A DNA stretch of 54,707 bases from Beijerinckiaceae bacterium. Its GTDB lineage: Bacteria > Pseudomonadota > Alphaproteobacteria > Rhizobiales > Beijerinckiaceae. The translations under genes were made by a program, and so were the position numbers. Numbering within the stretch: the first letter of the stretch is position 1; every line of letters begins with the position of its first letter. Of this stretch, positions 5,360 to 50,851 are shown piece after piece. The DNA is taken from the NCBI GenBank assembly GCA_947474545.1, contig CANJJI010000008.1, positions 1 through 54,707 on the forward strand, in the 5' to 3' direction. Below the pieces are notes generated by a model that worked only from the letters and a program-made list of their open reading frames with translations, made no database searches and had not been told where the DNA came from.

Positions 5360-5398
5360 GAGCCTCTACCTCTGGTTTCCGCGTCTGAGGCGGATGCC

Positions 5399-10042: not shown

Positions 10043-10064
10043 GATCGTGTTCCCTGCCCCTCGC

Positions 10065-11018: not shown

Positions 11019-11021
11019 GGC

Positions 11022-11762: not shown

Positions 11763-11891
11763 GTCCTTAAACCCTTCGAGGCTCCCGCCTCTTTCCTAAA
11801 CAATCAGGCTGCTGCCCTCTTGCTACAACATGGGACTTTCGCCCCTTTGGCACATTCCCCAAGGAAGAGGTGCCGGTTCCTTATCGACAAC

Positions 11892-12200
11892 TCAGAGCTT
11901 GATCTCGACATCCACACCAGCGGCGAGATCGAGTTTCATAAGAGCATCGACGGTCTGCGGCGTGGGATCTACAATATCGAGCACACGCTTGTGCGTACGG
12001 ATTTCGAACTGCTCACGCGACTTCTTGTCGACGTGCGGCGAGCGGTTCACCGTGAATTTTTCAATCTGCGTTGGCAGCGGGATCGGTCCGCGCACCTGCG
12101 CACCCGTCCGCTTCGCCGTCGAGACGATTTCCTTCGTCGAGGCATCGAGGATCCGGTGATCGAATGCCTTGAGACGTATGCGGATATTCTGACCGTTCAT
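11892..12200 (-). CDS. rpsJ: 30S ribosomal protein S10 (NusE)
   Basis: Small-subunit head protein that also acts as NusE in transcription antitermination together with NusB and NusG. It is 102 residues, with [19 protein letters not shown] at the start and the signature [19 protein letters not shown] followed by [17 protein letters not shown]. It stands 140 bases after tuf, behind an 11-bp hairpin, and 129 bases before rplC. Confidence 0.98.
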
Positions 12201-29897: not shown

Positions 29898-30320
29898 TTA
29901 AAATGCCTTGAAAAAATAGGGCCAGAAGGTCAGAACACCGATCATCGCCGCAGCGCCTGCGCAAATCAACACCGCTCCAGCCGCGATATCTTTGGCCTTC
30001 TCAACTGAACCGTGAAATTCGGGCGCAACGACATCACACAGAAACTCAAACGCCGTATTCATGGTCTCTCCAAGCCACACGAACGCAACCGCCGCAATGA
30101 CCCAGCGCCAATCTGACGCTGTCAATCCAAACAACAGGCCGACGAGCGTGACCACCACCGTTATACCCAGATGAACCCATGCGTTATGCTGACTTTTCAG
30201 CATGAAATGGATGCCGGAGGCTGCAAAGCGAAAGCTTTTCAACCGCCCGGCAATTGAGAAATCGCCGGTCCTTATTGCTGGGGACGTGTAGACGTGAGCA
30301 TCATCGCTATTCTCAGACAT
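29898..30320 (-). CDS. dgkA: Diacylglycerol kinase-type lipid kinase
   Basis: Small integral-membrane kinase that phosphorylates diacylglycerol or undecaprenol, 140 residues, about 20 longer than usual at the N-terminus. Three spans are visible (about 50-67, 71-86 and 113-135). The conserved catalytic region reads GETMNTAFEFLCD (Glu85, Asn88, Glu92, Asp96) and EKAKDIAAGAV (Lys108, Asp111). An AGGAG motif precedes the start by 10 bases. It stands between the Ldi-like gene and the MFS gene with gaps above 100 bases, so it need not be cotranscribed. Lipid versus undecaprenol specificity cannot be told. Confidence 0.85.
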   Translation of the reverse strand: MSENSDDAHVYTSPAIRTGDFSIAGRLKSFRFAASGIHFMLKSQHNAWVHLGITVVVTLVGLLFGLTASDWRWVIAAVAFVWLGETMNTAFEFLCDVVAPEFHGSVEKAKDIAAGAVLICAGAAAMIGVLTFWPYFFKAF

Positions 30321-30451
30321 CTCAAATTTTCTCCTTTTGTTTTGCAGCTCGCCAAGCTACGGCGCTATACGGAGGCCGGGCGCCCTGCCAATATCTTATG
30401 ACCGAAAGCAGAATTCCAAACAGGCCCGCAATCAGCGCACAACAGGCCATC

Positions 30452-32392
30452 TTACAACTCCAGAACGAGTTTCAATTCATGTTGCGGTTGGGCCCTGATT
30501 GAAAGCAGCCATTCTCCTTGAGCGGAAGCCGTGAAAGCGGCATGCGAATGCCCCGCGAGCCGGTAGTTTTTGCCGGGCTTCAACCCTCCGAAGGCAACAT
30601 CTAGTTCTTGCCCAGGAGACTGTGGCGCGATGACAGCCGTAAGATTGTTATTATCGCGGCGCGCAGAAAGGCAAATCGCTTCAGGATAGGTCAATGATTT
30701 GATATAAGGTCCTTCCTTTGGCTTCGCCAAACCGATCAATTTGCTAAATTCATTCCTCTGTCCCGCTCGCGCGCATATCTCCACGGCATGCGCCCATACC
30801 GACGCTGCGGGCCTGTGAGTTACTCCATCAACTGTGACGGCAGGACATTCCTCGTCCAGCGCATCCAGGCAGCTTACAGCTATCTCGCAATCTCCCATTT
30901 CATTCGCGGCAAGTGCTGTTGCGGCGTAGGCTGCGGCGCGGCTGAACCGATAATTCCCCGTATCGACAGGCCAGAATGCCTTGCGGTCCAATTTGCCTGC
31001 ATGCCAAATCCGTTCACGCACAAGAAGCCACTGCCGCAGGGCGACGTCCGGCATAATTGCGTTCAGGAAGAAACAAGGCATGGCTTGCGGCATGATTCCT
31101 CCAACCATGGGAAATCCAAATCCCGTTCTTGCAGAACGGCAGCTGACGAACCGGCCGGTTGCGTCAATAAATTCCGCTTCCAGACCGGTACGAAAATGCG
31201 GCATGAGATTTTCCCAGCGTCGCAAATCAAACTGTGTATCGTAAGCTCGTATCGATGAAGCACCAATTGTGTTGCAAATGGGATAGATCCAGTTTGGTTC
31301 ACAGGCAATCAACCCAAATGGCGAAGCAGCCATATGGTCCGCTGTAATGCGAACGAGATCGGCAAACGAATATGCAAAGTTGCGTCCGCTTCGATCCCGA
31401 AGTTGGAGCCCATATTCAACCCCTGAAGCGCTAAGCGGCGAAGCAGCCTGTGCCATCGCCATCTGCAACGCCCCAAAACCGGTGTACATAATATTTTCGC
31501 GCCGGCATGGATCTGGATTCACATCCAGATTCCCCCAAATATTTTCCAGCCGCCAATAGCTCCAAATCCTGTGATCAGATAGTTTCGCGTTAAGCCGGAG
31601 TTGCGCTTCATTGAATGGCCCAGCAAGTGCTGGAGCATACCGGGCCTGAATTGTCGCAAGCGCATAAGCACAAAAATTGATCTGGTAACGCACGGCCGCC
31701 GTTTGAAACTGATCGAGCCATTCAAAGCCCTCAAAAAAATTGACAGGCTGTAAGGCACGGTCGAACAAAAAACGGACGCGTGCAGCATCTTCCAGGCTAA
31801 GTGCGCACTTCTGGGTATTTTCTTCCCGGACAGGCTGAAAAACCGCCACTCGCAATTTGGCATTTGTGGCATCGCGCGCCCGCTTTGCGGTTATACCTCG
31901 CACATACATACCAGCGAATATGAACGCCACACCGGCCAATGCCAAAACTGGCACGGCAACGCGCAATACCGGCCATTCGGCTGGCCCCTGCATCAAGCCT
32001 GCTGAACACGCTGTTAAAAACCAGACCAAGGGTGCAAGCAGGATATTGCCTGTCGCAAACCACATAAAAACTGCCATAGCGAAAAAGCCCATGGACAGCA
32101 TGAACAACATGATGTGCAAGAGACCGTGCCCATGCATTCCCCCATGAAGGAGAAATCCTGCGCCTGGCGCAACTAGGCCCAATCCGAAAGCATCCAGCCC
32201 GCTTCGTGGAAAGCCGAGCGCCAATACAGCGCCAACAACAATAAACAAAGTCCACAGACCCAGAGTTTTATTGATGCGTGAACGAGTCGCCGGGCCGTGC
32301 AGGCTCGCTTTGCCCGGCAAAAGCAATACCCCGGCCTCCCCGCCAATTTCAGCAATTATTGTGTCTGGCGAGCTTAGTCCGGGATTCGACAT
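30452..32392 (-). CDS. Membrane-anchored linalool dehydratase/isomerase-family protein
   Basis: A 646-residue protein from the ATG at 32392. The N-terminal part (about 45-165) holds four or five hydrophobic spans with a His/Gly-rich loop (LLHGGMHGHGLLH, 81-93). From about 200 on it matches linalool dehydratase/isomerase (Ldi) of Castellaniella as I remember it: VRYQINFCAYALA (234-246), ENIMYTGFG (299-307) and CEPNWIYPIC (364-373). The cysteine pair has the same nine-residue spacing as catalytic Cys171/Cys180. Ldi has His after the NIMYKG segment (His129), whereas here it is Phe306. Asp211 may match Asp39, and Tyr45 is not evident. The fold is therefore probably the (alpha/alpha)6 barrel, but substrate and even activity are open. 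A frame 43 codons longer exists without a convincing start. The upstream neighbour is a CE4 deacetylase. Confidence 0.75.
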   Translation of the reverse strand: MSNPGLSSPDTIIAEIGGEAGVLLLPGKASLHGPATRSRINKTLGLWTLFIVVGAVLALGFPRSGLDAFGLGLVAPGAGFLLHGGMHGHGLLHIMLFMLSMGFFAMAVFMWFATGNILLAPLVWFLTACSAGLMQGPAEWPVLRVAVPVLALAGVAFIFAGMYVRGITAKRARDATNAKLRVAVFQPVREENTQKCALSLEDAARVRFLFDRALQPVNFFEGFEWLDQFQTAAVRYQINFCAYALATIQARYAPALAGPFNEAQLRLNAKLSDHRIWSYWRLENIWGNLDVNPDPCRRENIMYTGFGALQMAMAQAASPLSASGVEYGLQLRDRSGRNFAYSFADLVRITADHMAASPFGLIACEPNWIYPICNTIGASSIRAYDTQFDLRRWENLMPHFRTGLEAEFIDATGRFVSCRSARTGFGFPMVGGIMPQAMPCFFLNAIMPDVALRQWLLVRERIWHAGKLDRKAFWPVDTGNYRFSRAAAYAATALAANEMGDCEIAVSCLDALDEECPAVTVDGVTHRPAASVWAHAVEICARAGQRNEFSKLIGLAKPKEGPYIKSLTYPEAICLSARRDNNNLTAVIAPQSPGQELDVAFGGLKPGKNYRLAGHSHAAFTASAQGEWLLSIRAQPQHELKLVLEL

Positions 32393-37593: not shown

Positions 37594-38301
37594 TCAATTT
37601 TTGATCGAAAACACATTTTCCCCAAAATAAAGAAAGTCTCTATTCCTGCTGCTGATCGCCTTGAGAAAGATCTCTGATGTCCGCTGCTTTGGCAAAAGCC
37701 AATCATGTAACTCAATTATGAGAATAGGAAACGAATCTATCCAATCCACATTTGCAGAAAATAACTCTCGCTCACCACCTTCAATGTCAATTTTCACGAG
37801 GAATGGAACATAACCTTGCTGCTGCATGTCGGCCAAAAGCCGCCCCGCGCCAATCATTTTCGTCAATCCATTAACATCTAATTCGGTCCGATACCCCCAT
37901 TCGCCTTCACCAGGATCAACCAAACTTACCTTTGCATCCTGCGACCCTATCGCTGCTTGATAAATATCGACATTGAGATCAACGGTATTTTTTTGAAGTA
38001 ATGCGTAGTTGTCTGCGTCTGGTTCAATACCCACAATATGCGCGCCCGGAAAAGTGATCGAAAACCATACAATGCTGGCTCCTATATTTGATCCAGCATC
38101 CAAAATAAGAGGTCGCAAGCCAGCCGCAAGTTGCGCTTGATATAACTGAAAAATCTCGCGGCCACGTCCCAGTTTATGGAGCGAATAATCTTGAGATTTG
38201 AACATTTGTTGTATAACGCCATGGTCGGCTTTAGTTCCACGATGCAGAAACTCTCGTTTCGATCCATCCGATAGTTGCAATGTAAACCTATGCAGCGTCA
38301 T
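37594..38301 (-). CDS. FkbM-family methyltransferase
   Basis: SAM-dependent O-methyltransferase, 235 residues, of the family often found in polysaccharide and antibiotic clusters. The SAM-binding motif LILDAGSNIGAS lies near 65-76, the acidic loop IEPDADN near 96-102, and VKIDIEGGERELF near 168-180. The start at 38301 has AGGAG 7 bases upstream. The gene is clearly more AT-rich than its surroundings, as is the GT25 gene before it, which points to recent acquisition. It probably methylates a surface sugar. Confidence 0.85.
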   Translation of the reverse strand: MTLHRFTLQLSDGSKREFLHRGTKADHGVIQQMFKSQDYSLHKLGRGREIFQLYQAQLAAGLRPLILDAGSNIGASIVWFSITFPGAHIVGIEPDADNYALLQKNTVDLNVDIYQAAIGSQDAKVSLVDPGEGEWGYRTELDVNGLTKMIGAGRLLADMQQQGYVPFLVKIDIEGGERELFSANVDWIDSFPILIIELHDWLLPKQRTSEIFLKAISSRNRDFLYFGENVFSIKN

Positions 38302-38370
38302 TTAGCATCTCCTAGTGTTAGATTTTCAAACTAAAGCTTCTCCTGCATATCATGCTGGCTGGAAGAATAT

Positions 38371-39174
38371 TTATTTGCTCCTGAATTTTGTCGACAGACG
38401 TACGGCAAGGATTTTCGAAAAATGTAATGTCTCGGGATCACTGACATCGTCAACAATCGCCGTGAGATGTTTGTTTAGTGAATTCATATCCCGATCAATG
38501 TACATAAGCTTTCTGAATTCATTCCACACAAAGTCGGCAATTTGCGTATCTTTCTGTTGAATTTGCGAGTCCAGCGCAAATTCGGAGATTGGTGTCGCAA
38601 AAGGAAAAATGAATTTTGCTCGAACCTGTCTTGCCATGATGATCTTGCGAAGAACCATGGCATAAGGCGCCTCGCCTAAACTCGCCTCCACAAGGTCTGT
38701 AAAAACTGAAAGTTTTGAGTTGTTGACGATATAACATGTCGAACTAAAAAATGGATATGTAGCTAGGTCTATAAGCTGCGCTTTATAGTCACTCATCAAC
38801 TGTCGCCGTAGAAGAAGCAGTTGTATCATAATTTGCGGATTCGCAATGCCGATTTCAGGGAACAGAACATCCCAATCTCTACCTGTTTTATTGACAAAGT
38901 GAGACAACAATCGACCGCTTGCCTCTCCAAACAGTACGTCATCCTCGCAGATCAGGAATGGAGCTTCGGCGTTTTTATTACTACGCAGGAGTTCAAGATG
39001 ACTCCGGTAGCAGCCGGCCGCTCCTCCTCGGATTTTCCAACTCTGCGATGCCTCTCCCGTGAGTGCTGGAAAACGATGCAACCGCCAATCGGCGGGTATA
39101 AATCGCTTGAAATTTTCTTCTACCTTGGCACGCCGTTCAGTTTGCGTATCCAAATTGATATAGTAGCAATCCAT
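38371..39174 (-). CDS. Glycosyltransferase family 25-like protein
   Basis: Probable LPS or capsule sugar transferase, 267 residues, starting at the ATG at 39174 (MDCYYINLDTQTERR), 8 bases after GAGG. Family 25 marks are YINLDTQTERR at the start, GCYRSHLELL near 63-72 and the metal-binding-like ICEDDVLF near 84-91. The gene is AT-rich and stands 33 bases after mcd and 69 before the FkbM gene. Together the pair looks like a fragment of a surface-glycan locus. The donor sugar is unknown. Confidence 0.75.
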   Translation of the reverse strand: MDCYYINLDTQTERRAKVEENFKRFIPADWRLHRFPALTGEASQSWKIRGGAAGCYRSHLELLRSNKNAEAPFLICEDDVLFGEASGRLLSHFVNKTGRDWDVLFPEIGIANPQIMIQLLLLRRQLMSDYKAQLIDLATYPFFSSTCYIVNNSKLSVFTDLVEASLGEAPYAMVLRKIIMARQVRAKFIFPFATPISEFALDSQIQQKDTQIADFVWNEFRKLMYIDRDMNSLNKHLTAIVDDVSDPETLHFSKILAVRLSTKFRSK

Positions 39175-39207
39175 CCAAACTACCTCATCAAAAATTTGAT
39201 ACAATGT

Positions 39208-40833
39208 TCAAGCGGATCGCCCCAGCAACCCCCGCGCAATCACCTGCGCCTGAATCTCTGCGGCACCTTCAAAAATATTCAATATCCTGGCGTCGCACAA
39301 GAGCCGTGACACCGGCGATTCCAGTGCGTAGCCGGCGCCGCCGTGGATTTGCAATGCATTGTCCGCACAGGACCATGCAACGCGGGCGGCCAGCAATTTG
39401 GCCATGCCCGCTTCCACATCACAGCGGCCGCCCTCTTCCTTGCGGCGCGCGACGGACAGAACAAGCTGGCGCACCATCATCGTCTCGATGGCCATCCATG
39501 CGAGCTTGTTGTACACACGCGGAAATTCAACAATGGCTCTGCCAAACTGCTTTCTTTCACACGCATAAGAGAACGCCAGCTCAAACGAATTCTGCGCCAC
39601 GCCCAGCGCCCGCGCGGCGGTTTGAATCCGGGCCAATTCAAACGTCGCCATCAACTGCCTGAAACCTTCGCCCTCAAAATCGCCTAGCAATGCGGAGGCA
39701 GGAATGCGCAGTCCGTCGAACGCCAGCTCATATTCGCGCATGCCACGATAGCCAAGCACCGGAATTTCGCTCCCCGAGAGGCCCGGCAGCGGAAACGGAT
39801 CAGCATCGCTGCCCCTGGGCTTTTTCACCAGAAACATGGAAATGCCGTTGTGCCCGCTCCCCGCTTCACCGGTGCGCGCCAATACCAGCATGAGATCGGC
39901 CCGCGCAGCATGGGTAATCCAGGTCTTCGCCCCATAAAGCACGAAGTGATCGCCATCGCGTTCTGCCCGCGTCGTCAGACTCGCAAGGTCCGAGCCTGCG
40001 TTAGGCTCGGTGAAAACCGCCGTTGGCAAAATTTCGCCGGAGATTATGGGTTTCAACCAGCGCGCTTTCTGTGCCTCGGTGCCACCCTTGCGGATGAGTT
40101 CGACCGCAATTTCCGAACGCGTACCAAGAGAGCCCGCGCCGATATAGCCGCGCGAAAGCTCCTCGGTCACCGCACACATGGCAGCGACGCCAAGGCCCGA
40201 ACCACCGTCCGTTTCGGGCGCTGTGAGGCCAAAGACACCAAGGTCAGCCAGCTTTTTGATGAGCTGAGCCGGAAGCAATTGGTTCCTTCGATGCCAGTCC
40301 TGGGCATGAGGCTCAATTTCGCGGTTCGCAAAGGCACGGAACTGGCTGCGGACCATCGCCAGCGTCGGATCGGCATCGCTGAGATCAGCCAGGCTCTCAA
40401 CTCCGGCCTGTTGAAGCAAAGCCACCAGTTCAGAGCGGCACTCGCGTGACGCTTCCGCCGTCAGCCCGGCAGCTTCTCTTTGCAGGCCGAAATCGGCCGG
40501 CCGCACATATTCGTCTTGAGACATGGCGATAGCCGAAGCCATCTGCGCCAGATATTCTCCCGTCCCGGCCATGGCGATCAATTGCGCCGCCCGGCTGAAA
40601 CGTCCCGCCCCTTCAAGGGTCTCAGCCCATCGCGCGGTTGCAACGATCGCCGCCGCGTAGGATTCAATCCAGGCATACCCATGCGTCTGGTGCTGGAACC
40701 GGCTCATGAGTGCAGGATCGAGCTTGCCGGCAGGCGCGCAGAGGGGCCCTAGCCGCGCGCGAACCTTGGCGGCATAGTCGAGAGCCGCCTGCGCACGGCT
40801 TTGCAACGTCTTGATTTCCATTGAAGCGGCCAA
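39208..40833 (-). CDS. mcd: (2S)-methylsuccinyl-CoA dehydrogenase
   Basis: FAD-dependent acyl-CoA dehydrogenase of the ethylmalonyl-CoA pathway, which oxidises (2S)-methylsuccinyl-CoA to mesaconyl-CoA. At 541 residues it has the N-terminal domain of about 160 residues that marks Mcd (FQHQTHGYAWIESYAAAI, GTGEYLAQMASAIAMSQ). The dehydrogenase core follows, with FTEPNAGSDLASLTTRA, ARIQTAARALGVAQ and IHGGAGYALESPVSRLL. The catalytic glutamate is probably Glu522 in the IFEG motif. The start is TTG at 40833, 7 bases after AGGGAG; an ATG 4 codons later is possible. It has its own candidate promoter and lies directly after tRNA-Trp. No other pathway genes occur in the window. Confidence 0.85.
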   Translation of the reverse strand: MAASMEIKTLQSRAQAALDYAAKVRARLGPLCAPAGKLDPALMSRFQHQTHGYAWIESYAAAIVATARWAETLEGAGRFSRAAQLIAMAGTGEYLAQMASAIAMSQDEYVRPADFGLQREAAGLTAEASRECRSELVALLQQAGVESLADLSDADPTLAMVRSQFRAFANREIEPHAQDWHRRNQLLPAQLIKKLADLGVFGLTAPETDGGSGLGVAAMCAVTEELSRGYIGAGSLGTRSEIAVELIRKGGTEAQKARWLKPIISGEILPTAVFTEPNAGSDLASLTTRAERDGDHFVLYGAKTWITHAARADLMLVLARTGEAGSGHNGISMFLVKKPRGSDADPFPLPGLSGSEIPVLGYRGMREYELAFDGLRIPASALLGDFEGEGFRQLMATFELARIQTAARALGVAQNSFELAFSYACERKQFGRAIVEFPRVYNKLAWMAIETMMVRQLVLSVARRKEEGGRCDVEAGMAKLLAARVAWSCADNALQIHGGAGYALESPVSRLLCDARILNIFEGAAEIQAQVIARGLLGRSA

Positions 40834-40856
40834 GGCGTCACTCCCTCTGATGAGCC

Positions 40857-40885
40857 CTTATAGCCAAGCCACCATGCAGGCGCAA
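40857..40885 (-). promoter_or_regulatory. Candidate promoter of mcd
   Basis: TTGCGC at 40880-40885, 17 bases, then TATAAG at 40857-40862 on the minus strand. The -10 is 24 bases before the TTG start codon. It is the same architecture as the secE promoter. Confidence 0.5.
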
Positions 40886-40935
40886 AGCCGCTCCGTCTAA
40901 CTCAAGATCCTGATTTCAGACTAGTTATGGAAAAA

Positions 40936-41013
40936 TGGCAGGAGTGGAGGGACTCGAACCCGCAACCCTCGGTTTTGGAGACCGATACTCTAACCAAATT
41001 GAGCTACACTCCT
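40936..41013 (-). tRNA. tRNA-Trp (anticodon CCA)
   Basis: A 78-base tRNA with CCA encoded. The acceptor AGGAGTG pairs with CACTCCT, with G as discriminator. The D arm is GCTC/GAGT. The anticodon arm TCGGT-CTCCAAA-ACCGA gives CCA. The T arm reads GCGGG-TTCGAGT-CCCTC, where one position is a C.U mismatch in place of the usual G.U pair. The promoter TTGCAG-N17-TAAATA lies about 47 bases upstream. In most related genomes this gene immediately precedes secE; here about 5.2 kb separate them. Confidence 0.95.
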
Positions 41014-41059
41014 GCAAGCACGCAAACCGGGCAAACGCCACCGGTTCCCGCGACGGCTC

Positions 41060-41088
41060 TATTTACGCCGAAGTGTTTTTTCCTGCAA
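41060..41088 (-). promoter_or_regulatory. Candidate promoter of tRNA-Trp
   Basis: TTGCAG at 41083-41088, a 17-base spacer and TAAATA at 41060-41065 on the minus strand, 47 bases upstream of the mature tRNA 5' end. It lies in the 93-base space to the divergent gene at 41107. Confidence 0.6.
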
Positions 41089-41106
41089 GCTTGAATTGGC
41101 CGTTAA

Positions 41107-42378
41107 ATGAGTGACAAATCAGAGCCCCTGCGTGATAAACGGCTTATGCAGCATGTCAGGCGCAGATTGGTCTTCTATGTGGGCGGGTTCGATCCCCGTG
41201 GCGCCTCCTATTACCATGGCCTGTATTCCCGCGAAGCGGCAAAACAGGCCGCAGTCAATGGCATGAGGATCGAGACCGGGCCACGAAAACGCGCCGGGCG
41301 GCTCGTCAGCCATTGGAAGGTCCACGCACATGATGCCGGCGGCGAGGTCGAGGCAGATTATTGCTATCTCCATTGGGACGATATCGTCCGCGCCCGCTGG
41401 ACGAAGAACCCGCTCATAGTTTCCGCCCAGGCGCTGTCTGCCTTCTGGTTCATGGTGCGGACAGGCGCATTGAAACGATTCTACCGCCTGTCCTGGCCTT
41501 TCGCGTTGACTGCGGCCTATCCGTTTCTGCAGATGGTGGTGACTTTGCTGGCCGCCTTAATCGCTGGCCTCGTCGTATACGCGGGGGCGGCTTGGTTAGG
41601 CCAATCGCCCGTTTGGGCAAATGCGCTGGTCGCAATCGCTCTGGGCCTCGGAGCGGGCGCATTCGTGCTAGAACGGGCCGCGCGCGCCAATGTCTTCTGG
41701 ATCGGACGCGTCACCACGGTCATGTCGGCCTTCATGCGCGAAGCCATACCGGAAGTGGAGGAGCGCGCCGCGGCGCTGGCTGGCGAAATCATCGCACGGC
41801 GCAAAACAGCCGAAACCGGCCCGGGATGTGACGAAGTCGTTATCGTCGGCCATTCCGTCGGCGCCGACATCGCCACCCGCATCATCGCGCGGATTCTGGA
41901 ACTTGATCCGGACTTTGCGTCTGGCTCTGTGCCTGTCAGTTATCTCACCCTTGGCCAGCTCGTGATCTTCGAAGCCATGCCGGAAGGCTCTCCAGGATTC
42001 CGCCAGGACTTGGCGAAAGTCGCCTGCGCACATGGTCTGACCTGGATCGATTTCGCAGCACCAGCCGATCCTGCCTGCATCGCTCTGGTCGATCCTCTGA
42101 AAGGCAGCCTGATCGACCGGCCCGCTGGCGCGGAGATTCGCCCCAAACTCCTGTCGCCGCGCTTTCCAAAACTCTTTGCCCCGGAAGCCTATCAAAAATT
42201 GCGCAAGGAAAAGATGACCATGCACTTCATGTATCTTCAGGCGACGGACATCGCCGGAGACTATGACTATTTCGCCATTACGGCCGGCTCCCGGACTCTT
42301 GCTGCGCGTTACGAGCATCTGGACTCAAACAGCAAATTTGATCTTTTGCAGGGCGGCATTCTCGGCGGTAAGACATGA
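41107..42378 (+). CDS. Membrane alpha/beta-hydrolase-like protein of unknown function
   Basis: A 423-residue protein. It opens with a soluble segment containing FYVGGFDPRGASYYH (about 23-37), then two membrane spans (about 135-160 and 168-188), then a domain with the nucleophile-elbow motif VGHSVGAD (Ser250) typical of alpha/beta hydrolases. The acid and histidine partners cannot be assigned by eye. It ends 49 bases before the broken P450 gene and is on the same strand, so the two probably formed one unit. A lipid- or ester-directed activity is possible, but the substrate is unknown. Confidence 0.7.
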   Translation: MSDKSEPLRDKRLMQHVRRRLVFYVGGFDPRGASYYHGLYSREAAKQAAVNGMRIETGPRKRAGRLVSHWKVHAHDAGGEVEADYCYLHWDDIVRARWTKNPLIVSAQALSAFWFMVRTGALKRFYRLSWPFALTAAYPFLQMVVTLLAALIAGLVVYAGAAWLGQSPVWANALVAIALGLGAGAFVLERAARANVFWIGRVTTVMSAFMREAIPEVEERAAALAGEIIARRKTAETGPGCDEVVIVGHSVGADIATRIIARILELDPDFASGSVPVSYLTLGQLVIFEAMPEGSPGFRQDLAKVACAHGLTWIDFAAPADPACIALVDPLKGSLIDRPAGAEIRPKLLSPRFPKLFAPEAYQKLRKEKMTMHFMYLQATDIAGDYDYFAITAGSRTLAARYEHLDSNSKFDLLQGGILGGKT

Positions 42379-42427
42379 GCCTGCCAAAGCGAACGCCCCC
42401 ATACCCGCCAACACCCGGGCCGAAGCA

Positions 42428-43835
42428 ATGACCGATTATATCCCGCCGTTTCCGACGCCCTTAAAGAAGCGTCCCGGCCTCTTCCGGCGCTGGTTCAAGG
42501 CAAGCGGCTGTCCCCTGCGTTCATTGACCGAACGCAACTACAGGATGAAGCTGGGCGAAAGCAATATCTTGGGCAACAGGCGTTATATCGTCGTTGAGCC
42601 CAGACTGGTCAAACCCCTCCCTTGATGACAAGGAGGAGATATATCCCAAAAGCCGTCTTGTACGGCGCATGCTTTATCCGGTCATCGGCAACAGCATCTT
42701 CATCACAAATGGCGAGACCTGGAAAAGCCAGCGGCAATTGCTGGAGCCGGCCTTCTCAGTCACCCGCATTCAGGATTCCTTTGAGCGCATGAATCGCGCC
42801 GTCGATGATATGCGGGCGCGACTGTCTAAAATTCCCGACGGTGGCGTATTTGAAGTCGAGCCGGAAATGACGCACGTCACGGCAGACGTCATATTCCGCA
42901 CCATTTGTTCACTGTCGATCAGCCAGAAGGAAGCCACCGAAACGTTTGAAGCGTTTCTGGAATACCAGCGGTTTTCCTATGGCGACAGCGTTCCGAGCCT
43001 GATCAATATTCCAAAATACCTGTCGTTGCGCTGGTGGCGTGGACGGCACGCAGCTACCCGCATCCGCAATGTTCTCGATCCCATGGTACAATCGCGCTAT
43101 GAGAACTTCGTCAAGGGGGAGCCTGATAACAATAACGACATGCTCTCGGCTTTACTCAACGCTTCGCGCAGCGAGACTGGAAGCGCCATGAAATTCACCT
43201 ACAAGGAACTGGCGGACCAGATCGCCATGTTGTTTCTGGCGGGCCACGAAACTTCGGCCTCCGCGCTATCCTGGGCGACCTACCTGATCGCGGCCCAACC
43301 CGAGATCCAGGAACGCATGCATGCTGAAGCTATGGCCGTCATGGGGGCAGATACGCCGCAATTCCAGCACATGAAACGGCTGACCTTGACGCGCGACGTC
43401 TTCCGCGAAACCCTTCGCCTATATCCCTCTGTGCCCTTCTTCACGCGCGAGTCCACGCGCCGCGAAAAAATGCGCGACAAAGTAATCGAAGCAGGCGCAT
43501 TGCTCGTCTTGTCGCCATGGCTGAGCCATCGTAACGAGACATTGTGGGACAAACCGCACGTGTTCGATCCCGACCGTTTCGACCGGCCGGAAACACAGGA
43601 GAGCGTGCGCAACGCCTACTTCCCCTTCAGCGCAGGCCGGAGGGTCTGTCTTGGCGCTGCCTTCGCCCTGCAGGAAGCCGTTCTCGTCCTGGCGGTCATC
43701 GTGCGCGATTACAAGCTTGAAGTCCTCAAGGGGGATGAACCCATGCCCCTCGCACGCGCTACCATTCGCACCTACGGCGGCATTCGCGTCCGGTTGACGC
43801 GCCGCGACAAGACAGGCGTTACTCAGTCAGCATAA
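42428..43835 (+). pseudogene. Cytochrome P450 with a single-base frameshift
   Basis: Heme-thiolate monooxygenase of about 468 codons in two frames. The N-terminal part starts at the ATG at 42428 (MTDYIPPFPTPLKKRPGLF) and runs into a stop at 42624. The remainder continues in the next frame from about 42615 to 43835. Removing one C from the CCCC run at 42614-42617 restores a continuous reading (LVKPSLDDKEEIYPKS) that matches the P450 family at this place. The rest is intact: I-helix AGHETSA (nt 43239), ETLR (nt 43407), and the heme loop FSAGRRVCLG with the ligand cysteine at nt 43647. It may be a sequencing error, a phase-variable or programmed frameshift, or a recent pseudogene. Confidence 0.85.
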
Positions 43836-43856
43836 GACCGCCGATACGTTGCGAGC

Positions 43857-44177
43857 TTATAATGGCTCCACACGCACTGCTGTGCCGTAACACAACACTT
43901 CGGTTATACCCGCCATGATCTCTGTCGCATCATAGCGCATGGCGATAATCGCATTTGCGCCACCCTGCCCTGCATGCTCAACCATGTGATCGAAAGCTTC
44001 CTGCCGGGCATTTTCGGCCAGGGTCACATAGACCTGGATTCGTCCGCCAAAAATAGCCGCGAGACCGCCGACAAAATTGCCGACTACTGAACGCGAGCGG
44101 ACAGTGATGCCGCGAACCATGCCCAGATGCTGGACAATGCGATAACCGGCGATTTCGTTGGATGTAGAAACAAGCAT
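43857..44177 (-). CDS. YbjQ family (UPF0145) protein
   Basis: A 106-residue protein of the YbjQ family, which folds as a small pentameric alpha/beta protein with a proposed but unproven metal-binding role. It shows the characteristic GMVRGITVRSRSVVGNF near 19-35, GGRIQVYVTLAENARQEAF, and GANAIIAMRYDATEI. It is convergent with the P450 gene and stands alone. Confidence 0.85.
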   Translation of the reverse strand: MLVSTSNEIAGYRIVQHLGMVRGITVRSRSVVGNFVGGLAAIFGGRIQVYVTLAENARQEAFDHMVEHAGQGGANAIIAMRYDATEIMAGITEVLCYGTAVRVEPL

Positions 44178-44283
44178 GGTGAACCTCAGAATTCAGGAGC
44201 ACTCAGTTAACACGCATATAATTTCGATTGTGTGACCTTTCGCACATCATAACTCAATTCGAACAAAGTATTCACAGGCCTCG

Positions 44284-45108
44284 TCAGACCTTCTCCCACG
44301 CTTCCACCATCTTTTTCCTTTGCGCAGCATCGGGCATCACACCAACGCCTGCCGCGACATTGTCACGTACATGTTCCGGCTTGCCAGTACCGGGAATGAC
44401 ACATGTGACTTCAGGATGACCAAGCAGATATTTGAGAAAGAACTGCGCCCAGCTGGTCGCGCCGATTTCCGCCGCAATAACCGGCAGGGCCCGGCCTCTG
44501 GTTTTGCCGAACAAGCCGCCACTTCCCAACGGACGATTTATCAACGTGGCGACGCCGCGCTCTGCCGCTACAGGCAGCAATCTCTGAATTGGCGCACGTT
44601 GACCGATAGAAAAGGCAAATTGAACAAAGTCGATTTTTTCCGTTCGCATGATTGCCGTGAGATCATCCAGCGCTGCATCGGTATAATGAGTGATGCCTAT
44701 ATAGCGGATGCGGCCCTCGTCTTTCCATTTGCGCAAGGTTTTCAGATGCACTTTCCAATCCAGCAGATTGTGAATTTGCATGAGATCAATCACTGGCGCC
44801 TGCATCTTGACCGATGAAGCCTGCATTTCGTGTATGCCCGCGGCCTCCCCGCTTGTCCAGACTTTGGTCGCGACAAAAGCCTTGTTGCGCGCGTTCATCT
44901 CGCCCAACAACGTGCCGGTTACTGATTCCGCGCGGCCATACATCGGCGAGGAATCCACAACCTTGCCGCCAGCCTCGAACAGAATTCGCAACACTTCCCT
45001 GCGCGGATCAAGTTCAGCCCGGCTGTTGCCTATATCGAACGTCTGCCAGGTGACTACACCAACAACTGGCAGAGCCTCACCGCTGGAAGGAATAGGACAT
45101 GTCAACAT
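44284..45108 (-). CDS. Aldo/keto reductase
   Basis: NADPH-dependent reductase-type TIM barrel, 274 residues. The catalytic tetrad is recognisable: Asp52 and Tyr57 in VDSSPMYGRAES, Lys82 in VATKVW and His113 in LMQIHNLLDW. RYIGITHY and the C-terminal CVIPGTGKPEHV (cofactor phosphate region) also fit. It lies 43 bases after the molybdenum hydroxylase large subunit on the same strand and may reduce or oxidise an aldehyde or ketone in the same pathway. The substrate is not predictable. Confidence 0.85.
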   Translation of the reverse strand: MLTCPIPSSGEALPVVGVVTWQTFDIGNSRAELDPRREVLRILFEAGGKVVDSSPMYGRAESVTGTLLGEMNARNKAFVATKVWTSGEAAGIHEMQASSVKMQAPVIDLMQIHNLLDWKVHLKTLRKWKDEGRIRYIGITHYTDAALDDLTAIMRTEKIDFVQFAFSIGQRAPIQRLLPVAAERGVATLINRPLGSGGLFGKTRGRALPVIAAEIGATSWAQFFLKYLLGHPEVTCVIPGTGKPEHVRDNVAAGVGVMPDAAQRKKMVEAWEKV

Positions 45109-45151
45109 GGCGGCAACTGCTCCATTTTGTTATGTCCATATCAAATGGAGC

Positions 45152-47431
45152 CTAACCAGCCTTCGCGCCCGCCTCCATCAGCGCCAACACTTTGGCCGGC
45201 GTCATCGGCAGCGAACGCGGGCGGATGCCTATGGCGTTGCCAATGGCATTGCCGATCGCCCCCATCGCTGGTGTCAGTGGCACTTCGCCAACGCCACGCA
45301 GACCATAGGGATGTTTGGGATTGGGCACTTCCACGATGACCGTATCAATCATTGGCACATCCGAGGCAACGGGCATGCGATAATCCAGAAAGCCCGGATT
45401 TTGCAGGCGTCCGTCATCGCCGAAAATATACTCCTCGTTGAGCGCCCAGCCTATGCCTTGCACGGCAGCGCCCTGAAATTGCCCTTCCACCTGCAGCGGA
45501 CTGATCGCCTTGCCCGCATCCTCGACAATCGTATAGCGCTTGACCGAGGTGAGGCCCGTTTCCTTGTCAACTTCCACATCAACGATATGCACGGCAAAAC
45601 CCGGGCCCGCCCCGGTGACATTCATTTCCGAATGACCGGCGATAGCACCCATCGTATATGTGGTTTTGGAAGCGATGTCCTTCATCGACAACGGCTCGAA
45701 ATTGCCGACGTTGGAACTCGCCGGACGGCAATGTCCATCCTCAAAGATCACGCCTTCTTCAGGCACATTCCAGATTTTTGCAGCACGGCGGCACAATTCT
45801 GCAATGATCTTGCGCGCAGAATCGATAACGATCATGCCGCTGGAAAATGTCGTGCGGCTGCCTGCTGTCACGCGATTATAGCCCAGCGAATTGGTGTCTG
45901 CGAGAACCGAACGCACGCGATCCACGGGGATACCGAATTCTTCGGCCGCCATCATCGACATCGACATGCGCGAACCCGCAACGTCGGCAGTGCCGAGGAT
46001 GATGTTGACCGTACCATCAGGCGCAAGGTTCATTGTGCCCGTTGTTTCACCACCCCGATTGAACCAGAAGCCGGTGGCAATGCCTCGCCCCTGCCCTTTG
46101 GGCACGGGTGACTTGTAATGATCGCAATTCTTGGCGGCCTCCAATGTCTCGACAAAGCCGATACGATTGAACGTTTCGCCATAGATTGTTTTATGGCCCT
46201 CGACGATGGCGTTCTTCAGACGAAAATCCAGTTCATCCATGCCCACCTTGCGCGCCAGTTCGCTGACGCAATCCTCGACGCCAAACACGACCTGCGGCAC
46301 GCAGGGCGCGCGGAACGAACTGACCTTCGGCCTGTTGGACACAACTTCATAGGAAACCGTGCGAACGTTTTTCAACTCGTAACGCGTCAGCATTGCCTGC
46401 GGCGCATTGGTGAATGCCGAACCTGTATAGGGGCCTGTCTGAAATATCAGCGTCGAATCGACAGCAACGATTGTTCCATCCTTCTTGCAGCCCATCTTGA
46501 TTGTCGACTGCGTGCCCGACACCGGGCCGGTAGCGCGCAACACTTCGCTTCGTGTCAGCGTCATCTTCACGGGGCATTTGGCTTTGCGTGAAAGAACGAT
46601 GGACAAAGGCTCCAGATAAAACGTCGTCTTGCCGCCAAAGCCGCCGCCGAGTTCCGATTGCTGGATACGGATTTTCGAAGAATCAATCTTCAAAATTTCC
46701 GTCAACCGGTCGCGGTAGACCCAGGGCGCCTGCGTGCAGCACCACAGATCGACCTGGCCGTCATCGGAATAATTGGCGATGCAGGATTGCAGCTCGATAT
46801 AGCCCTGATGCATGGGCTTGGTGTCATAGGTATGCTCGACGATAAAATCGGCTTGCGCAAAACCAGCGTCTACATCACAAATCGCGAGCACGCTGCGTTC
46901 AACCACATTGGTCGGCTTTTCTGCGTCCGGCCCCTTCGCGCCTTTGGTACGCATGTAATCATGCAGGATTGGCGCATCCGGCTTCATGGCCTCAACGGGA
47001 TCGATGACATGCGGTAGCACTTCATAGTGCACGTCAATCAGCTTCAGAGCTTTTTTAGCGATGGATTCACTTGTGGCCGCAACAGCTGCAACCGGATGGC
47101 CTTCCCAATAGACCTTCTCGCGCGCCATCGCGATACGCGTCATATCACCTGCGCCCGTGCCTTGCTTGATTTCTGGAAAATCATCGCGCGTGATGACGGC
47201 CTTCACGCCGGGTAGCGCGGCAGCCTTCGAGATATCGATGCTTTTCAAAACTGCATGGGGATGGGGAGAGCGCAAGACTTTGCCAATCAGCATGCCCGGC
47301 AGGAACGCGTCGGCAGCGAATTTCGCGCGGCCCGTTACCTTGTCGAAACCATCATGTTTGACCGGCGAAGTGCCGACAATCTTGTATTGCCGGTCCGGAT
47401 TGAAGCCGGGCTTTTCGAGAATTGTCGCCAT
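45152..47431 (-). CDS. Molybdenum hydroxylase, large (molybdopterin) subunit
   Basis: Catalytic subunit of the xanthine dehydrogenase/aldehyde oxidase superfamily, 759 residues. It binds the Mo-molybdopterin cofactor; the N-terminal domain starts at KVTGRAKFAADAFLPG. GGGFGGKTTFYLEP and FRAPCVPQ mark the cofactor region. The catalytic glutamate is Glu716 in RGVGEVP. It lacks the AYxCSFR loop of CO dehydrogenase, so it hydroxylates an aldehyde or aromatic/N-heterocyclic compound instead. It is last in the medium-small-large operon, 3 bases after the small subunit. Confidence 0.9.
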   Translation of the reverse strand: MATILEKPGFNPDRQYKIVGTSPVKHDGFDKVTGRAKFAADAFLPGMLIGKVLRSPHPHAVLKSIDISKAAALPGVKAVITRDDFPEIKQGTGAGDMTRIAMAREKVYWEGHPVAAVAATSESIAKKALKLIDVHYEVLPHVIDPVEAMKPDAPILHDYMRTKGAKGPDAEKPTNVVERSVLAICDVDAGFAQADFIVEHTYDTKPMHQGYIELQSCIANYSDDGQVDLWCCTQAPWVYRDRLTEILKIDSSKIRIQQSELGGGFGGKTTFYLEPLSIVLSRKAKCPVKMTLTRSEVLRATGPVSGTQSTIKMGCKKDGTIVAVDSTLIFQTGPYTGSAFTNAPQAMLTRYELKNVRTVSYEVVSNRPKVSSFRAPCVPQVVFGVEDCVSELARKVGMDELDFRLKNAIVEGHKTIYGETFNRIGFVETLEAAKNCDHYKSPVPKGQGRGIATGFWFNRGGETTGTMNLAPDGTVNIILGTADVAGSRMSMSMMAAEEFGIPVDRVRSVLADTNSLGYNRVTAGSRTTFSSGMIVIDSARKIIAELCRRAAKIWNVPEEGVIFEDGHCRPASSNVGNFEPLSMKDIASKTTYTMGAIAGHSEMNVTGAGPGFAVHIVDVEVDKETGLTSVKRYTIVEDAGKAISPLQVEGQFQGAAVQGIGWALNEEYIFGDDGRLQNPGFLDYRMPVASDVPMIDTVIVEVPNPKHPYGLRGVGEVPLTPAMGAIGNAIGNAIGIRPRSLPMTPAKVLALMEAGAKAG

Positions 47432-47434
47432 GGT

Positions 47435-47914
47435 TCAGGCTCCTCTCATTTCAGTAGCTGCGGCCATGACCGCGCGAATGACTTTGTCGTATCCGGTACA
47501 GCGGCAGAGATTGCCCGCCAGCCAGTAACGCACTTCTGTTTCAGACGGGTCGGGATTTTTTTCGAGCAACGCGCGCGCCGCCACCAAAATACCGGGGGTG
47601 CAGATGCCGCATTGCAGACCATTCAGCTCAAGGAACTTTTGCTGAAGCGGGTGCAGTGTGTCGCCCTTCGCCATGCCTTCGATAGTCTCAATCTTCTTGC
47701 CGCCAGCTTCGACGCCGAGCACGAGGCAGGAACATACGAGGCGGCCGTCCATCATCACGCTGCAGGCGCCGCAATCGCCTGTGGCGCAGCCTTCTTTCGT
47801 GCCTGTCAGCATGAGATTGTCGCGCAGCACGTCAAGCAGGCTCTGTTGCGGCTCGCAGAGAAAATCATATTCGTCGCCGTTGACGCTGGTGGTAACGTGA
47901 TATTTCTTGCTCAT
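47435..47914 (-). CDS. Molybdenum hydroxylase, small 2x[2Fe-2S] subunit
   Basis: Electron-transfer subunit, 159 residues. The plant-type cluster ligands are Cys43, Cys48, Cys51 and Cys63 (C-x4-C-x2-C-x11-C). The second cluster uses Cys102, Cys105, Cys137 and Cys139 (C-x2-C ... C-x-C). Both are complete. The start overlaps the end of the FAD subunit by 4 bases (ATGA), and the large subunit follows after 3 bases. Confidence 0.93.
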   Translation of the reverse strand: MSKKYHVTTSVNGDEYDFLCEPQQSLLDVLRDNLMLTGTKEGCATGDCGACSVMMDGRLVCSCLVLGVEAGGKKIETIEGMAKGDTLHPLQQKFLELNGLQCGICTPGILVAARALLEKNPDPSETEVRYWLAGNLCRCTGYDKVIRAVMAAATEMRGA

Positions 47915-48783
47915 GCTACATGCCTCGCCCGTTCCAGCGCCTTTTGGGCAACCCGTTTTGCCAGCACCCTGGCCATCTTGATGCGAAATTCCTTGGTGCC
48001 GCGTTTGTCATCAATCGGGCGGCAGGCAGCAGCCGCTGCCGCGGCCATCTTGTCTATGGCGGCCTCATCGACTTTTGTGCCGATCAAGGCGTCTGCGCAT
48101 TCCTTCACCAGAAGAACCGTCGGCGCCACAGCGCCAATCGCAACGCGTGCTGCCGTGCATACGCCCGCAGTGTCGAGCGTCAGATTGACCGCAACGCCCA
48201 CCACGGCAATGTCCATTTCCGTGCGCGGCGTGAAACGCAGATAGGCGTCGCCGGAGTTGCGCGCCCGCGCTGGCAGAAAGAAACTTTCGATGATCTCGCC
48301 TTTAGTGAGCGAAGTCTTGCCAGGGCCGACTGGAATCTGTTCGACCGGCACATCGCGCGCGCCGTTCGGCCCAACCACATGCGCAATTGCCCCCGCTGTC
48401 ACAAGGGGCGGCACGGAGTCAGCGCCCGGCGAAGCATTGCAGAGATTGCCAGCCATTGTGGCCCGGCCTTTCACCTGAATGGAGCCGATGAGCTTTACCC
48501 CGTCAATCAGGCCCGGCCATGTCGCGCACAGCGCTGCATGCTCCATCATCTCCATGCCGCTGACGGTCGCGCCGATGCGAAAGCCGCCATTCTCGGCCTT
48601 GATTTCGCGAAGACCTGGAATGTGCTTGATGTCGAGCAGCAATTCCGGATCGATCATATCCATTTCCATCTGCACGATAACGTCTGTGCCACCGGCCAAA
48701 ATTCGCGTAGGACCACCCGCTGCAGCCAATAGTTTAATCGCGCTCGCCACACTGTCTGGCGCCTCGTAACGAAGTTCGGACAT
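47911..48783 (-). CDS. Molybdenum hydroxylase, medium FAD subunit
   Basis: FAD-binding subunit of the CoxM/CutM type, 290 residues. The two flavin motifs are present as LAGGTDVI (about 30-37) and TMAGNLCNASPGADS (about 108-122). It is the first gene of the three-subunit operon, in the order medium-small-large as in CO dehydrogenase-like enzymes. The 3' end overlaps the small subunit start by 4 bases. Confidence 0.92.
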   Translation of the reverse strand: MSELRYEAPDSVASAIKLLAAAGGPTRILAGGTDVIVQMEMDMIDPELLLDIKHIPGLREIKAENGGFRIGATVSGMEMMEHAALCATWPGLIDGVKLIGSIQVKGRATMAGNLCNASPGADSVPPLVTAGAIAHVVGPNGARDVPVEQIPVGPGKTSLTKGEIIESFFLPARARNSGDAYLRFTPRTEMDIAVVGVAVNLTLDTAGVCTAARVAIGAVAPTVLLVKECADALIGTKVDEAAIDKMAAAAAAACRPIDDKRGTKEFRIKMARVLAKRVAQKALERARHVA

Positions 48784-48854
48784 TTCAACTCCCCGGTTTT
48801 TTTCAGGTTCCCGCCATCTTGGCGCAAATTTTCAGCTTCGCCAAATCTGACAAT

Positions 48855-49634
48855 TTATCGCTGCATGAGAGAACCAAGCCCCTTGACGGTGCGCATTTCG
48901 CCAAGCTTCGGCTGCAACGCTTTCAGACAGGCCCATATCGTCGCCTGATTGGAATTCACCACAGGCTTGCCGAGCATGCGTTCGACCCGCTCGACCACAT
49001 CGATCTGCGTTGTATTGGTGCAGGAGAGAAAATATCCATCGGCGTCATCTCGCTGATTATCCTTTACGACATCAATCCAGCGTGAGGGCGGCACCGAAAG
49101 ATAACCCTTCGACATCGGCACTTTCAGCGCGACATCATGCAACGTCTGGAAGCCGAAGTCCCGGAGATAGTCGATCTCGTGATCGTTCGTCTCCTGTTCA
49201 TATGGTGAAATCAGAACCAGCTTCTTTATGGAGACGGCCTTCAGTGCATCAATGACAGCCTGCGCTGTTGTCAGCGCAACAGCATCCGATTGCGAACGCA
49301 CAGCATCAAGCAAAACTTTTTCCCCCGCCGAACCGTGTTCCATTGAATTGCCCGTACAATGAAACACGATGACATCGCATTTGGCGTCCGCGAGAGAACT
49401 GGCGGCGATTTCCACTTCCTTCGCCAGCACATCCAGCGGCTTGCTGTGACGTCCTGTCATCTGCAGCCGCGTAACGTGGATGCCGATGTCATCAGGCATA
49501 TAGGCGCGGAAATGTGGCTCCGTCAGCCTATTGCTGGAGGGAATGATGAGGCCCACGCGGGCGCGCGCAAAGCCTGTGGAGTCCTCAATATCGAGCGCAT
49601 CGAGCCCAGATGCAGGTCTCGCATGAATGTTCAT
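48855..49634 (-). CDS. Asp/Glu racemase-superfamily isomerase, maleate isomerase type
   Basis: A 259-residue enzyme starting at the ATG at 49634 (GGAGG 7 bases upstream). The longer frame upstream has no family similarity. It shows the pseudo-symmetric superfamily with two active-site cysteines, Cys93 in FHCTGNS and Cys205 in SCTNT. Asn35 in PSSN and Tyr145 in SPYEQE are at the places used by maleate cis-trans isomerase. Arylmalonate decarboxylases keep only the second cysteine, so isomerase or racemase chemistry is more likely. It lies next to a molybdenum hydroxylase operon, on the same strand, 71 bases upstream. Confidence 0.8.
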   Translation of the reverse strand: MNIHARPASGLDALDIEDSTGFARARVGLIIPSSNRLTEPHFRAYMPDDIGIHVTRLQMTGRHSKPLDVLAKEVEIAASSLADAKCDVIVFHCTGNSMEHGSAGEKVLLDAVRSQSDAVALTTAQAVIDALKAVSIKKLVLISPYEQETNDHEIDYLRDFGFQTLHDVALKVPMSKGYLSVPPSRWIDVVKDNQRDDADGYFLSCTNTTQIDVVERVERMLGKPVVNSNQATIWACLKALQPKLGEMRTVKGLGSLMQR

Positions 49635-49786
49635 AGGCAATCCTCCAATCCTATTTTGTCGGCATGTTAGCGCAAGGCAGCAAAAAAGCGAAAGAGTGCA
49701 AAGCGCAAAATCAGCAGAGACTTGCCAAAGATGAAATCCGCAGTCATCCTGCTCCGAAATTTGACAATCCGATCTGGGGATGGACC

Positions 49787-50809
49787 ATGCGCACTTCAAG
49801 CCTTTGCGGCGCTGCGGCATTTTTTTTGGCATCCGCCCTTTATGCGCAGGCGCAGTCGCCCGCCGAATTCTATGCACGCAAGAATGTGCGCATGATGGTC
49901 GGCTATGGACCCGGCACCGGCTTTGATGTCTATGCCCGTGCAGTCGCGCGTCACATGGGCCGCCATATCCCCGGCCAGCCCAATATGGTTGTTGAAAACA
50001 TGCCGGGCGCAGGCGGCCTTACAATGGCAAATTATCTATATAACGTCGCCCCGAAAGACGGCACAGCCATTGGTCTTGTCGTCAATGTCTTCATGGAACC
50101 TTTATTCAAGAACGATGCAGTGCGTTTCGACGTAAAAAAATATACGTGGCTGGGCAGCGTCAGCCGTTCAACGCCCTTGTGTTTTACCTGGGACACCAGC
50201 GGCATCAATCGCTTTGAGGATGTGTACGCAAAGGAAACATTGGTCGGCGCCATCGGCCGCTTTACGGACAGCTATCTCTTTCCACAATTGATCAATGATT
50301 TTCTGGGCACGAAATTCAAACCCGTGAGTGGCTATCCCGACAGCGCCGCCGTTGGCATCGCCATGGAGCGCGGCGAATTGCACGGATTCTGCAGCTTTAC
50401 TTTGGCCAGCGTGAAATCAGCGCGGCCCGAATGGCTCGCCAAGAAGCAGATCAATATCCTGGTTCAGCTCGGGCTCACAAAGAATCCGGAAATACCAGAT
50501 GTGCCCATGATTCTTGATCTTGTGAAGGAGGACACGGCCAAGCAGATCATGACCGTCATGGCCAGCAATTGGGAAGCGGCGCGTCCCGTTGGCGGTCCTC
50601 CCGGCATCCCCAAGGATAGACTGGATGCGCTGCGCAAAGCCTTCATGGATACGATGAAAGACCCGGAATTTCTCGCCGAAACCAATAAACTGAATATCGA
50701 GGTGGATCCGCTGGACAGCACTGCGGTCGAGAAGGTCCTCGACCGGCTTTATGATACGCCTCAGCCTGTCATTGACCGCATGATTGCGATCAGGGCCAGG
50801 GATTATTGA
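49787..50809 (+). CDS. Bug/TctC-family periplasmic solute-binding protein
   Basis: Receptor of the tripartite tricarboxylate transporter type, 340 residues. The ATG at 49787 follows GGGGA. A signal peptide of about 22 residues ends at AQAQS. The mature part begins AEFYARKNVRMMVGYGPGTG and has MPGAGGLTMANYLYNVAPKDGT, the ligand-binding loops typical of Bug receptors for carboxylated compounds. No membrane subunits TctA or TctB are nearby, as is common for orphan Bug proteins. It is divergent from the maleate-isomerase-like gene across 152 bases and probably supplies a substrate for the same pathway. Confidence 0.85.
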   Translation: MRTSSLCGAAAFFLASALYAQAQSPAEFYARKNVRMMVGYGPGTGFDVYARAVARHMGRHIPGQPNMVVENMPGAGGLTMANYLYNVAPKDGTAIGLVVNVFMEPLFKNDAVRFDVKKYTWLGSVSRSTPLCFTWDTSGINRFEDVYAKETLVGAIGRFTDSYLFPQLINDFLGTKFKPVSGYPDSAAVGIAMERGELHGFCSFTLASVKSARPEWLAKKQINILVQLGLTKNPEIPDVPMILDLVKEDTAKQIMTVMASNWEAARPVGGPPGIPKDRLDALRKAFMDTMKDPEFLAETNKLNIEVDPLDSTAVEKVLDRLYDTPQPVIDRMIAIRARDY

Positions 50810-50835
50810 CAGCCCGCGCTGGGCTGTCGCGTTTT
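50808..50835 (+). terminator. Intrinsic terminator after the Bug/TctC gene
   Basis: GACAGCCC (50808-50815) and GGGCTGTC (50821-50828) form a perfect 8-bp stem with a 5-base loop, followed by GCGTTTT. It overlaps the stop codon. On the opposite strand it may also slow the convergent transcript from 50852, though without a U-run there. Confidence 0.7.
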
Positions 50836-50851
50836 CCGGGATGACGCCAAA

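Follow-up and report, generated by a model that had tools for sequence, protein, structure and literature searches.

A membrane-anchored Ldi-family enzyme encoded with a vicinal-cysteine microprotein and a DgkA-type kinase: a candidate operon for isoprenoid alcohols

A 54,707-nucleotide stretch of DNA from a Beijerinckiaceae bacterium (hereafter, the window) encodes on its minus strand a 646-aa protein (30452..32392, ATG at 32392) that was originally predicted to be a relative of linalool dehydratase/isomerase (Ldi), fused to a multi-span membrane domain and deprived of the catalytic histidine. The locus raises the question of whether such a protein can be an active enzyme and, if so, on which substrate and with which partners it acts. 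The family, fold, catalytic residues, clade, gene order and conservation of a neighboring microprotein were computed for this locus and are described in the following sections.

The enzyme and its known relatives

The relationship to Ldi was borne out at the level of sequence and structure. The Pfam Ldi profile (PF18566) matched residues 235-532 with 220.4 bits (E 5.5e-65), far above the cut-off of 26.1 bits, and phmmer matched the sequences of crystallised Ldi at E 7e-10 to 2e-8 over residues 221-514; NCBIfam profiles assigned no family to the protein. The AlphaFold model (pLDDT 92.1, pTM 0.92, 45 aligned sequences) displays the helical barrel of the Ldi crystal structures: Foldseek retrieved nothing but Ldi among the 27 best PDB matches (E down to 8e-12, target TM-score 0.71), followed by far weaker matches that include GH127 and other glycosidase barrels. 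The protein genuinely belongs to the Ldi family, carries a membrane domain at its N-terminus and is, as a family member, ordinary.

The membrane domain comprises residues 34-183 (31844..32293), modeled as helices at 34-60, 65-74, 78-81, 90-114, 119-133 and 143-183. Combined with hydropathy, these correspond to four membrane helices (34-60, 90-114, 119-133 and 143-163, the last being the start of the long helix 143-183) and a short one at 65-81, in agreement with the "four or five" spans that had been anticipated. The Ldi-type barrel extends over residues 200-553 (30734..31795) and is followed, past the Ldi-like part, by a beta domain at residues 563-644 (30461..30706). The claim that the C-terminal 430 residues match Ldi holds for about 300 of them, the last ~80 being this separate domain.

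The Ldi of Castellaniella defragrans (PF18566; PDB 5g1u, 5hlr, 7ad2) and the window enzyme share the barrel fold and the CEP...C motif with its nine-residue spacing, and they align at Met302 and Tyr236, positions which we take to lie in the Ldi pocket. Unlike the window enzyme, the Castellaniella protein is periplasmic, has neither a membrane domain nor the C-terminal beta domain, and carries a His at the position of F306. In the stretch that contains the Cys48-Cys101 disulfide of Ldi, the two proteins align only with uncertainty. As the original prediction stated, C364 and C373 in the motif CEPNWIYPIC (31274..31303, which also contains E365) align with the Ldi Cys pair with exactly this spacing, and both the phmmer alignment to Ldi and the alignment of homologs place F306 (31475..31477) at the His of ENIMYKGH, that is, His129.

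The conservation of these residues was examined in 82 aligned membrane-type sequences (rows), consisting of the window, 78 of 80 genome loci and the loci L086, L094 and L095. The 80 loci, many from metagenome bins, are the best of 86 obtained with a two-peptide-motif scan, so that the sample favors relatives of the window protein; L085 (identical to L084), L053 (truncated) and L003 (on the same contig as L017) were left out. The near-identical pairs L007/L008 and L015/L018 inflate the counts, and L015, labeled Anaerolineae, is so close to the alphaproteobacterial L018 locus that its label is probably a binning error. None of the 82 rows deviates at C364, E365, C373, N374, W280, E283 or M302. 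The position of F306 is always aromatic, being F in the 28 rows of the clade to which the window belongs, Y or W in the eight rows of the clade of the linalool isomerase Lis, and W, F or Y in the other 46; a His occupies it in no aligned sequence but the Ldi-type rows L096 and L005, and the soluble long forms L002 and L004 have Y.

Known Ldi had been described in the prediction as a soluble enzyme, which omits the membrane-anchored Lis of Thauera linaloolentis 47Lol (ENO87364); the membrane fusion itself is thus not new. Lis is a 644-aa protein with four predicted N-terminal membrane helices and a cytosolic Ldi-like domain, its activity was located in the inner membrane and required a reductant, and it was inactive once expressed in Escherichia coli, either whole or truncated; the accessible portion of that report mentions no partner in the expression of lis (PMC4791888). 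The protein of locus L094, read from codon 4, has 644 aa, a computed mass of 71.83 kDa and GRAVY values of -0.115 overall, 0.94 for residues 1-139 and -0.406 for the rest. Length, mass and the three GRAVY values equal those published for Lis, and the difference in pI (6.72 vs 6.06) may reflect the method (PMC4791888, in its accessible portion). L094 is therefore taken to be Lis.

Lis and the window enzyme are alike in length (644 vs 646 aa), in the four N-terminal membrane helices, the Ldi-like C-terminal domain and the Cys pair, as well as in having an aromatic residue (W in L094) where Ldi has His129. Provided that L094 is Lis, there is an active isomerase without His129, and the absence of this residue is no sign of a dead enzyme or of different chemistry. 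The suggestion that the window protein follows a different chemistry or is a non-catalytic barrel was discarded on these grounds, given the constant aromatic residue and the invariant Cys pair and Glu in the membrane-type rows.

A clade defined by a DgkA-type kinase

The window enzyme differs from Lis in its phylogenetic position and in its genomic context. The gene is flanked upstream by a NodB-type deacetylase gene and downstream by a gene for a 140-aa DgkA-type integral membrane lipid kinase (29898..30320, minus strand; PF01219, E 1.7e-26), which is followed by an MFS protein. In an 85-row tree (of the "quick" type, with SH-aLRT support only), the rows with such a kinase form a single clade that requires one change of state (28/28, support 99), with the window inside and L094 outside. 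In all 28 clade rows, which span Alpha-, Beta- and Gammaproteobacteria, the kinase gene lies on the same strand and no more than 650 bp downstream of the enzyme gene; in contrast, it was found in none of the 54 other membrane-type rows, for which the flanks reached at most about 8 kb in either direction (L035 ends at the end of the gene). L086, L094 and L095 were labeled "no DgkA" in the tree, and a later profile scan of their flanks agreed, with no DgkA match.

Like other members of PF01219, the window kinase keeps the E..N...E and KD motifs, which we take to be catalytic and which are retained by all 28 clade kinases. In half of the clade (14/28 rows) the kinase differs from the family in an N-terminal extension that corresponds to the small protein encoded between enzyme and kinase in the window, yielding fusions of 150-205 aa, ten of which were aligned. 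The enzymes of the clade are also set apart by positions including W474, R527 and H535; R527, present in 26/28 clade rows where the other rows mostly have Y, may be linked to a different substrate.

The window genome contains a second, separate DgkA, and NCBIfam profiles assigned no family to the two DgkA copies. Among ten clade genomes checked, three have two DgkA copies, while in the other seven the copy in the cassette is the only one. The cassette kinase is thus a dedicated paralogue in some genomes at most, and it may serve general diacylglycerol recycling.

At four of the 28 clade loci (L012, L014, L015 and L018, two of them near-identical) the gene directly upstream of the enzyme encodes a UppS-type cis-prenyltransferase. 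A fifth case is the plasmid pAU20b of Aureimonas sp. AU20, in which a hypothetical protein, a regulator, uppS, a "hypothetical protein" corresponding to the enzyme and a "diacylglycerol kinase family protein" succeed one another, all confirmed by profiles built in this work. The genomes of L012, L014 and L018 have two UppS copies, and seven other clade genomes have one. The five cassette copies (PF01255, PRK14839-like) keep the family motifs intact and are 46-87% identical among themselves, compared to 40-41% with the only UppS of the window genome, which is located on another contig, the window cassette containing none. In 12/28 clade rows the enzyme is preceded by a conserved pair of genes, one for a membrane protein that has no significant match in Pfam and one for an HTH_34 winged-helix regulator, and in four of these rows UppS lies between regulator and enzyme; the two genes of the conserved pair overlap, as in L012 (6013-6684 and 6656-7051) and 11 other clade loci. 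A B12-binding radical-SAM protein adjoins the enzyme in four clade loci, L011 (6445-7983), L017, L022 and L027; the copy of L011, the sole one tested, passes the NCBIfam cut-off for BchE, and its host is labeled Methylotenera.

The survey of co-occurring genes that had been proposed thus provides genomic evidence for the isoprenoid-lipid direction of the original prediction, consisting of DgkA behind the gene throughout the clade, UppS in front of it at five loci and a second UppS in three of the genomes checked. The same prediction had named a glycan deacetylase and a lipid kinase as neighbors. Both are present, but the deacetylase has no counterpart elsewhere: with a threshold of E 1e-3, phmmer did not detect it in any of the remaining 81 loci, and BLAST yielded no partner at 1e-10 among the called genes. 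It was ruled out as a functional partner and should not guide interpretation.

Relatives of the enzyme were detected in six plasmid records. None was confirmed in viral_contigs, the search of phages for the pAU20b homolog returned none, and there is no sign of a viral home. Genes for an FkbM-type methyltransferase and a family 25 glycosyltransferase are present at 37594-39204 of the window.

The CC microprotein

Between enzyme and kinase, the window contains a 42-aa ORF (30322..30450, minus strand) that was overlooked in the original prediction, located 1 nt past the enzyme stop and 1 nt before the DgkA start. The product, designated here CC protein, has the plan M-x-C-C, one membrane helix and "xWR" (MACC... 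in the window). Under a strict rule, namely a start codon, any residue, Cys-Cys and a hydrophobic stretch without charged residues at positions 5-12, a CC ORF adjoins the enzyme gene in 67 of the 82 membrane-type rows, including all 28 clade rows, always downstream, and 39 of the 54 others (36 upstream, 3 downstream). Another count, 71/84, includes chance matches such as L059, and 67/82 is the figure to rely on. The lack of charge at residues 5-12 proves nothing, as the rule itself demands it.

Fifteen rows have no adjacent CC ORF by the strict scan. L050, L062 and L076 lie near a contig end, the candidate of L084 fails the strict rule, L040 has a ~319-aa MACC protein just upstream of the enzyme, and in L094 and L095 the CC gene is 8 kb from the enzyme gene; the others are L042, L045, L046, L047, L059, L064, L066 and L080. 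In pAU20b the CC protein has 38 aa and is missing from the PLSDB gene table, which is itself incomplete. At L007 and L008 an extra gene (9913-10398 and 9931-10389, respectively) separates the enzyme from the CC-DgkA pair, which stays together.

Over residues 13-45 of 67 CC copies, 347 K/R were counted vs 108 D/E. Based on the positive-inside rule, this bias suggests that the xWR end faces the cytoplasm and the Cys pair the outside. DgkA begins in the cytoplasm, and the CC-DgkA fusion therefore fits the predicted topology. The model of the L014 fusion is middling (pLDDT 78), with values of 46-71 for its first 40 residues.

The CC protein of the Lis-clade locus L086 identified a homolog (32% identity, E 1.1e-11) in the genome taken as that of T. 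linaloolentis, encoded on the contig and strand of lis, 8.1 kb upstream. Compared to the adjacent 42-aa protein of the window, this is a longer form of 127 aa; by eye, it is flanked by acyl-CoA synthetase-like and enoyl-CoA hydratase-like genes, and a sister genome (G654) is arranged alike. Lis was placed in the 24-kb atu region, a terpene-catabolic cluster, whose intervening genes "were annotated as hypothetical proteins" in the accessible text of the report (PMC4847356). The CC microprotein is likely a general partner of membrane-type Ldi/Lis enzymes, new as far as our searches show, and its absence may explain the inactivity of Lis in E. coli. If confirmed as a subunit, it would account for that failure and open access to a group of regioselective isomerases, a matter of interest for terpene biotechnology.

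Possible function of the operon and alternative readings

In beta-methyl allylic alcohols, Ldi and Lis transfer the hydroxyl between C1 and C3, and the head of any polyprenol is built in this way. The best reading of the locus, to which we give nearly even chances, is that the genes for enzyme, CC microprotein and DgkA (32392-29898) form a single compact operon whose products, an isomerase, its small subunit and a prenol kinase, act on an isoprenoid alcohol in the inner membrane; no terminator was predicted between the three genes (13 found in the scan vs 8.6 expected), and the promoter scan stayed at background (2 vs 3.0 expected). As far as our searches show, the cassette is new: no literature was found that joins linalool dehydratase to undecaprenol, or linalool isomerase to polyprenol or diacylglycerol kinase, nor any on PF18566, in a search covering mostly papers outside subscription journals.

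From the gene order and the conserved residues we infer activity, substrate and channelling as follows. The enzyme would be an allylic-alcohol isomerase of the Ldi/Lis type, using the pocket of Cys364, Cys373 and Glu365 to move the hydroxyl of a prenol between C1 (primary) and C3 (tertiary) of its head isoprene. The CC protein, as a one-helix subunit, would be needed to assemble or activate it. The lipid kinase behind the enzyme and the cis-prenyltransferase in front of it at some loci suggest that the substrate is an isoprenoid alcohol, most likely a long-chain polyprenol taken from the bilayer, and that a prenyl phosphate is the product; DgkA would phosphorylate the primary alcohol, and UppS, where present, would supply the cis-polyprenyl chain. 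In half of the clade DgkA carries the CC protein as a fusion, which makes it probable that kinase and isomerase are in contact and that the product is handed over.

A more specific version is held only tentatively. It proposes a hitherto undescribed membrane complex in which the polyprenol head is isomerised from a primary into a tertiary allylic alcohol and then delivered to a polyprenol kinase that is either fused or co-assembled. The vicinal-cysteine microprotein would be a subunit common to membrane-type Ldi/Lis enzymes, among them the Lis that was inactive in E. coli. Such an isomerisation might provide a way of exchanging cis and trans at the first isoprene, and a kinase clade acting on polyprenols would represent an unrecognised bacterial step in how the lipid carriers for cell-wall and surface-glycan synthesis are metabolised. 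Against polyprenols, UppS adjoins only 4/28 rows and the single UppS of the window genome lies on another contig; the radical-SAM neighbor in another 4/28 is something that a polyprenol pathway does not predict.

That neighbor, BchE-like in L011, is a hint that the alcohol may be related to chlorophyll in some hosts, and chemistry and kinase would also fit a salvage route for shorter isoprenoid alcohols in free form (farnesol, geranylgeraniol, phytol or tertiary isomers), the isomerase producing a primary alcohol that the DgkA homolog phosphorylates. With the UppS neighbors pointing to cis-polyprenyl chains and several hosts not being known as phototrophs, salvage is considered unlikely, though worth keeping in view.

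An ordinary linalool isomerase feeding geraniol into monoterpenol degradation would agree with the architecture and length shared with Lis and with the SDR, aldehyde dehydrogenase, enoyl-CoA hydratase, acyl-CoA dehydrogenase, acyl-CoA synthetase or CaiB-like genes found beside 32/53 non-DgkA loci. Catabolic genes are not far from the enzyme in the window either: a separate, catabolic-looking region at 39208-53248, 7-21 kb upstream, contains an acyl-CoA dehydrogenase (39208-40833), a P450 (42594-43835), two CO-dehydrogenase-type molybdenum large subunits with a FAD subunit and an arylmalonate-decarboxylase-like gene. However, the window protein falls outside the Lis clade, the same markers, which are generic, occur in only 7/29 DgkA loci (the window among the seven), and the catabolic genes of the window are at least 7 kb away, the dehydrogenase and P450 lying 7-12 kb upstream, past ribosomal genes, with no such gene among the immediate neighbors. 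No lipid kinase is known from the monoterpenol degradation pathway, and a role in this catabolism appears rather improbable. The accessible part of a report on steroid degradation names no Ldi-type step (PMC11061730).

Co-transcription of kinase and enzyme by history alone, with DgkA as a general lipid kinase and the barrel in another, perhaps regulatory, role, would accommodate the genomes in which the cassette DgkA is the sole copy (7/10), but it is very improbable in view of the linkage in 28/28 rows across three proteobacterial classes, the fusion of the small partner of the enzyme to the kinase in half of them and the invariant catalytic Cys and Glu residues. Finally, the idea that the CC microprotein is a chance ORF, which its length of only 42 codons and the lack of any noteworthy Pfam or NCBIfam match in the forms tested could suggest, can be all but dismissed, since a Shine-Dalgarno-like GGAG precedes the window ORF, 27 starts fall within -10..+30 nt of the enzyme stop by a looser test vs 0.07 expected, and the strict pattern found in 67/82 rows occurs only once in the remaining 2.25 Mb, counting both strands.

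Two loci of the sample encode more than one candidate member of the family. L005 has two adjacent short genes (1165-2316 and 2274-3455), the first for a soluble Ldi-type protein with His and the second for what may be a very divergent relative. L068, a Mycolicibacter locus, has two membrane-type Ldi copies (4932-6851 and 10050-12140) with a protein of ~293 aa, belonging to cluster c16, encoded between them.
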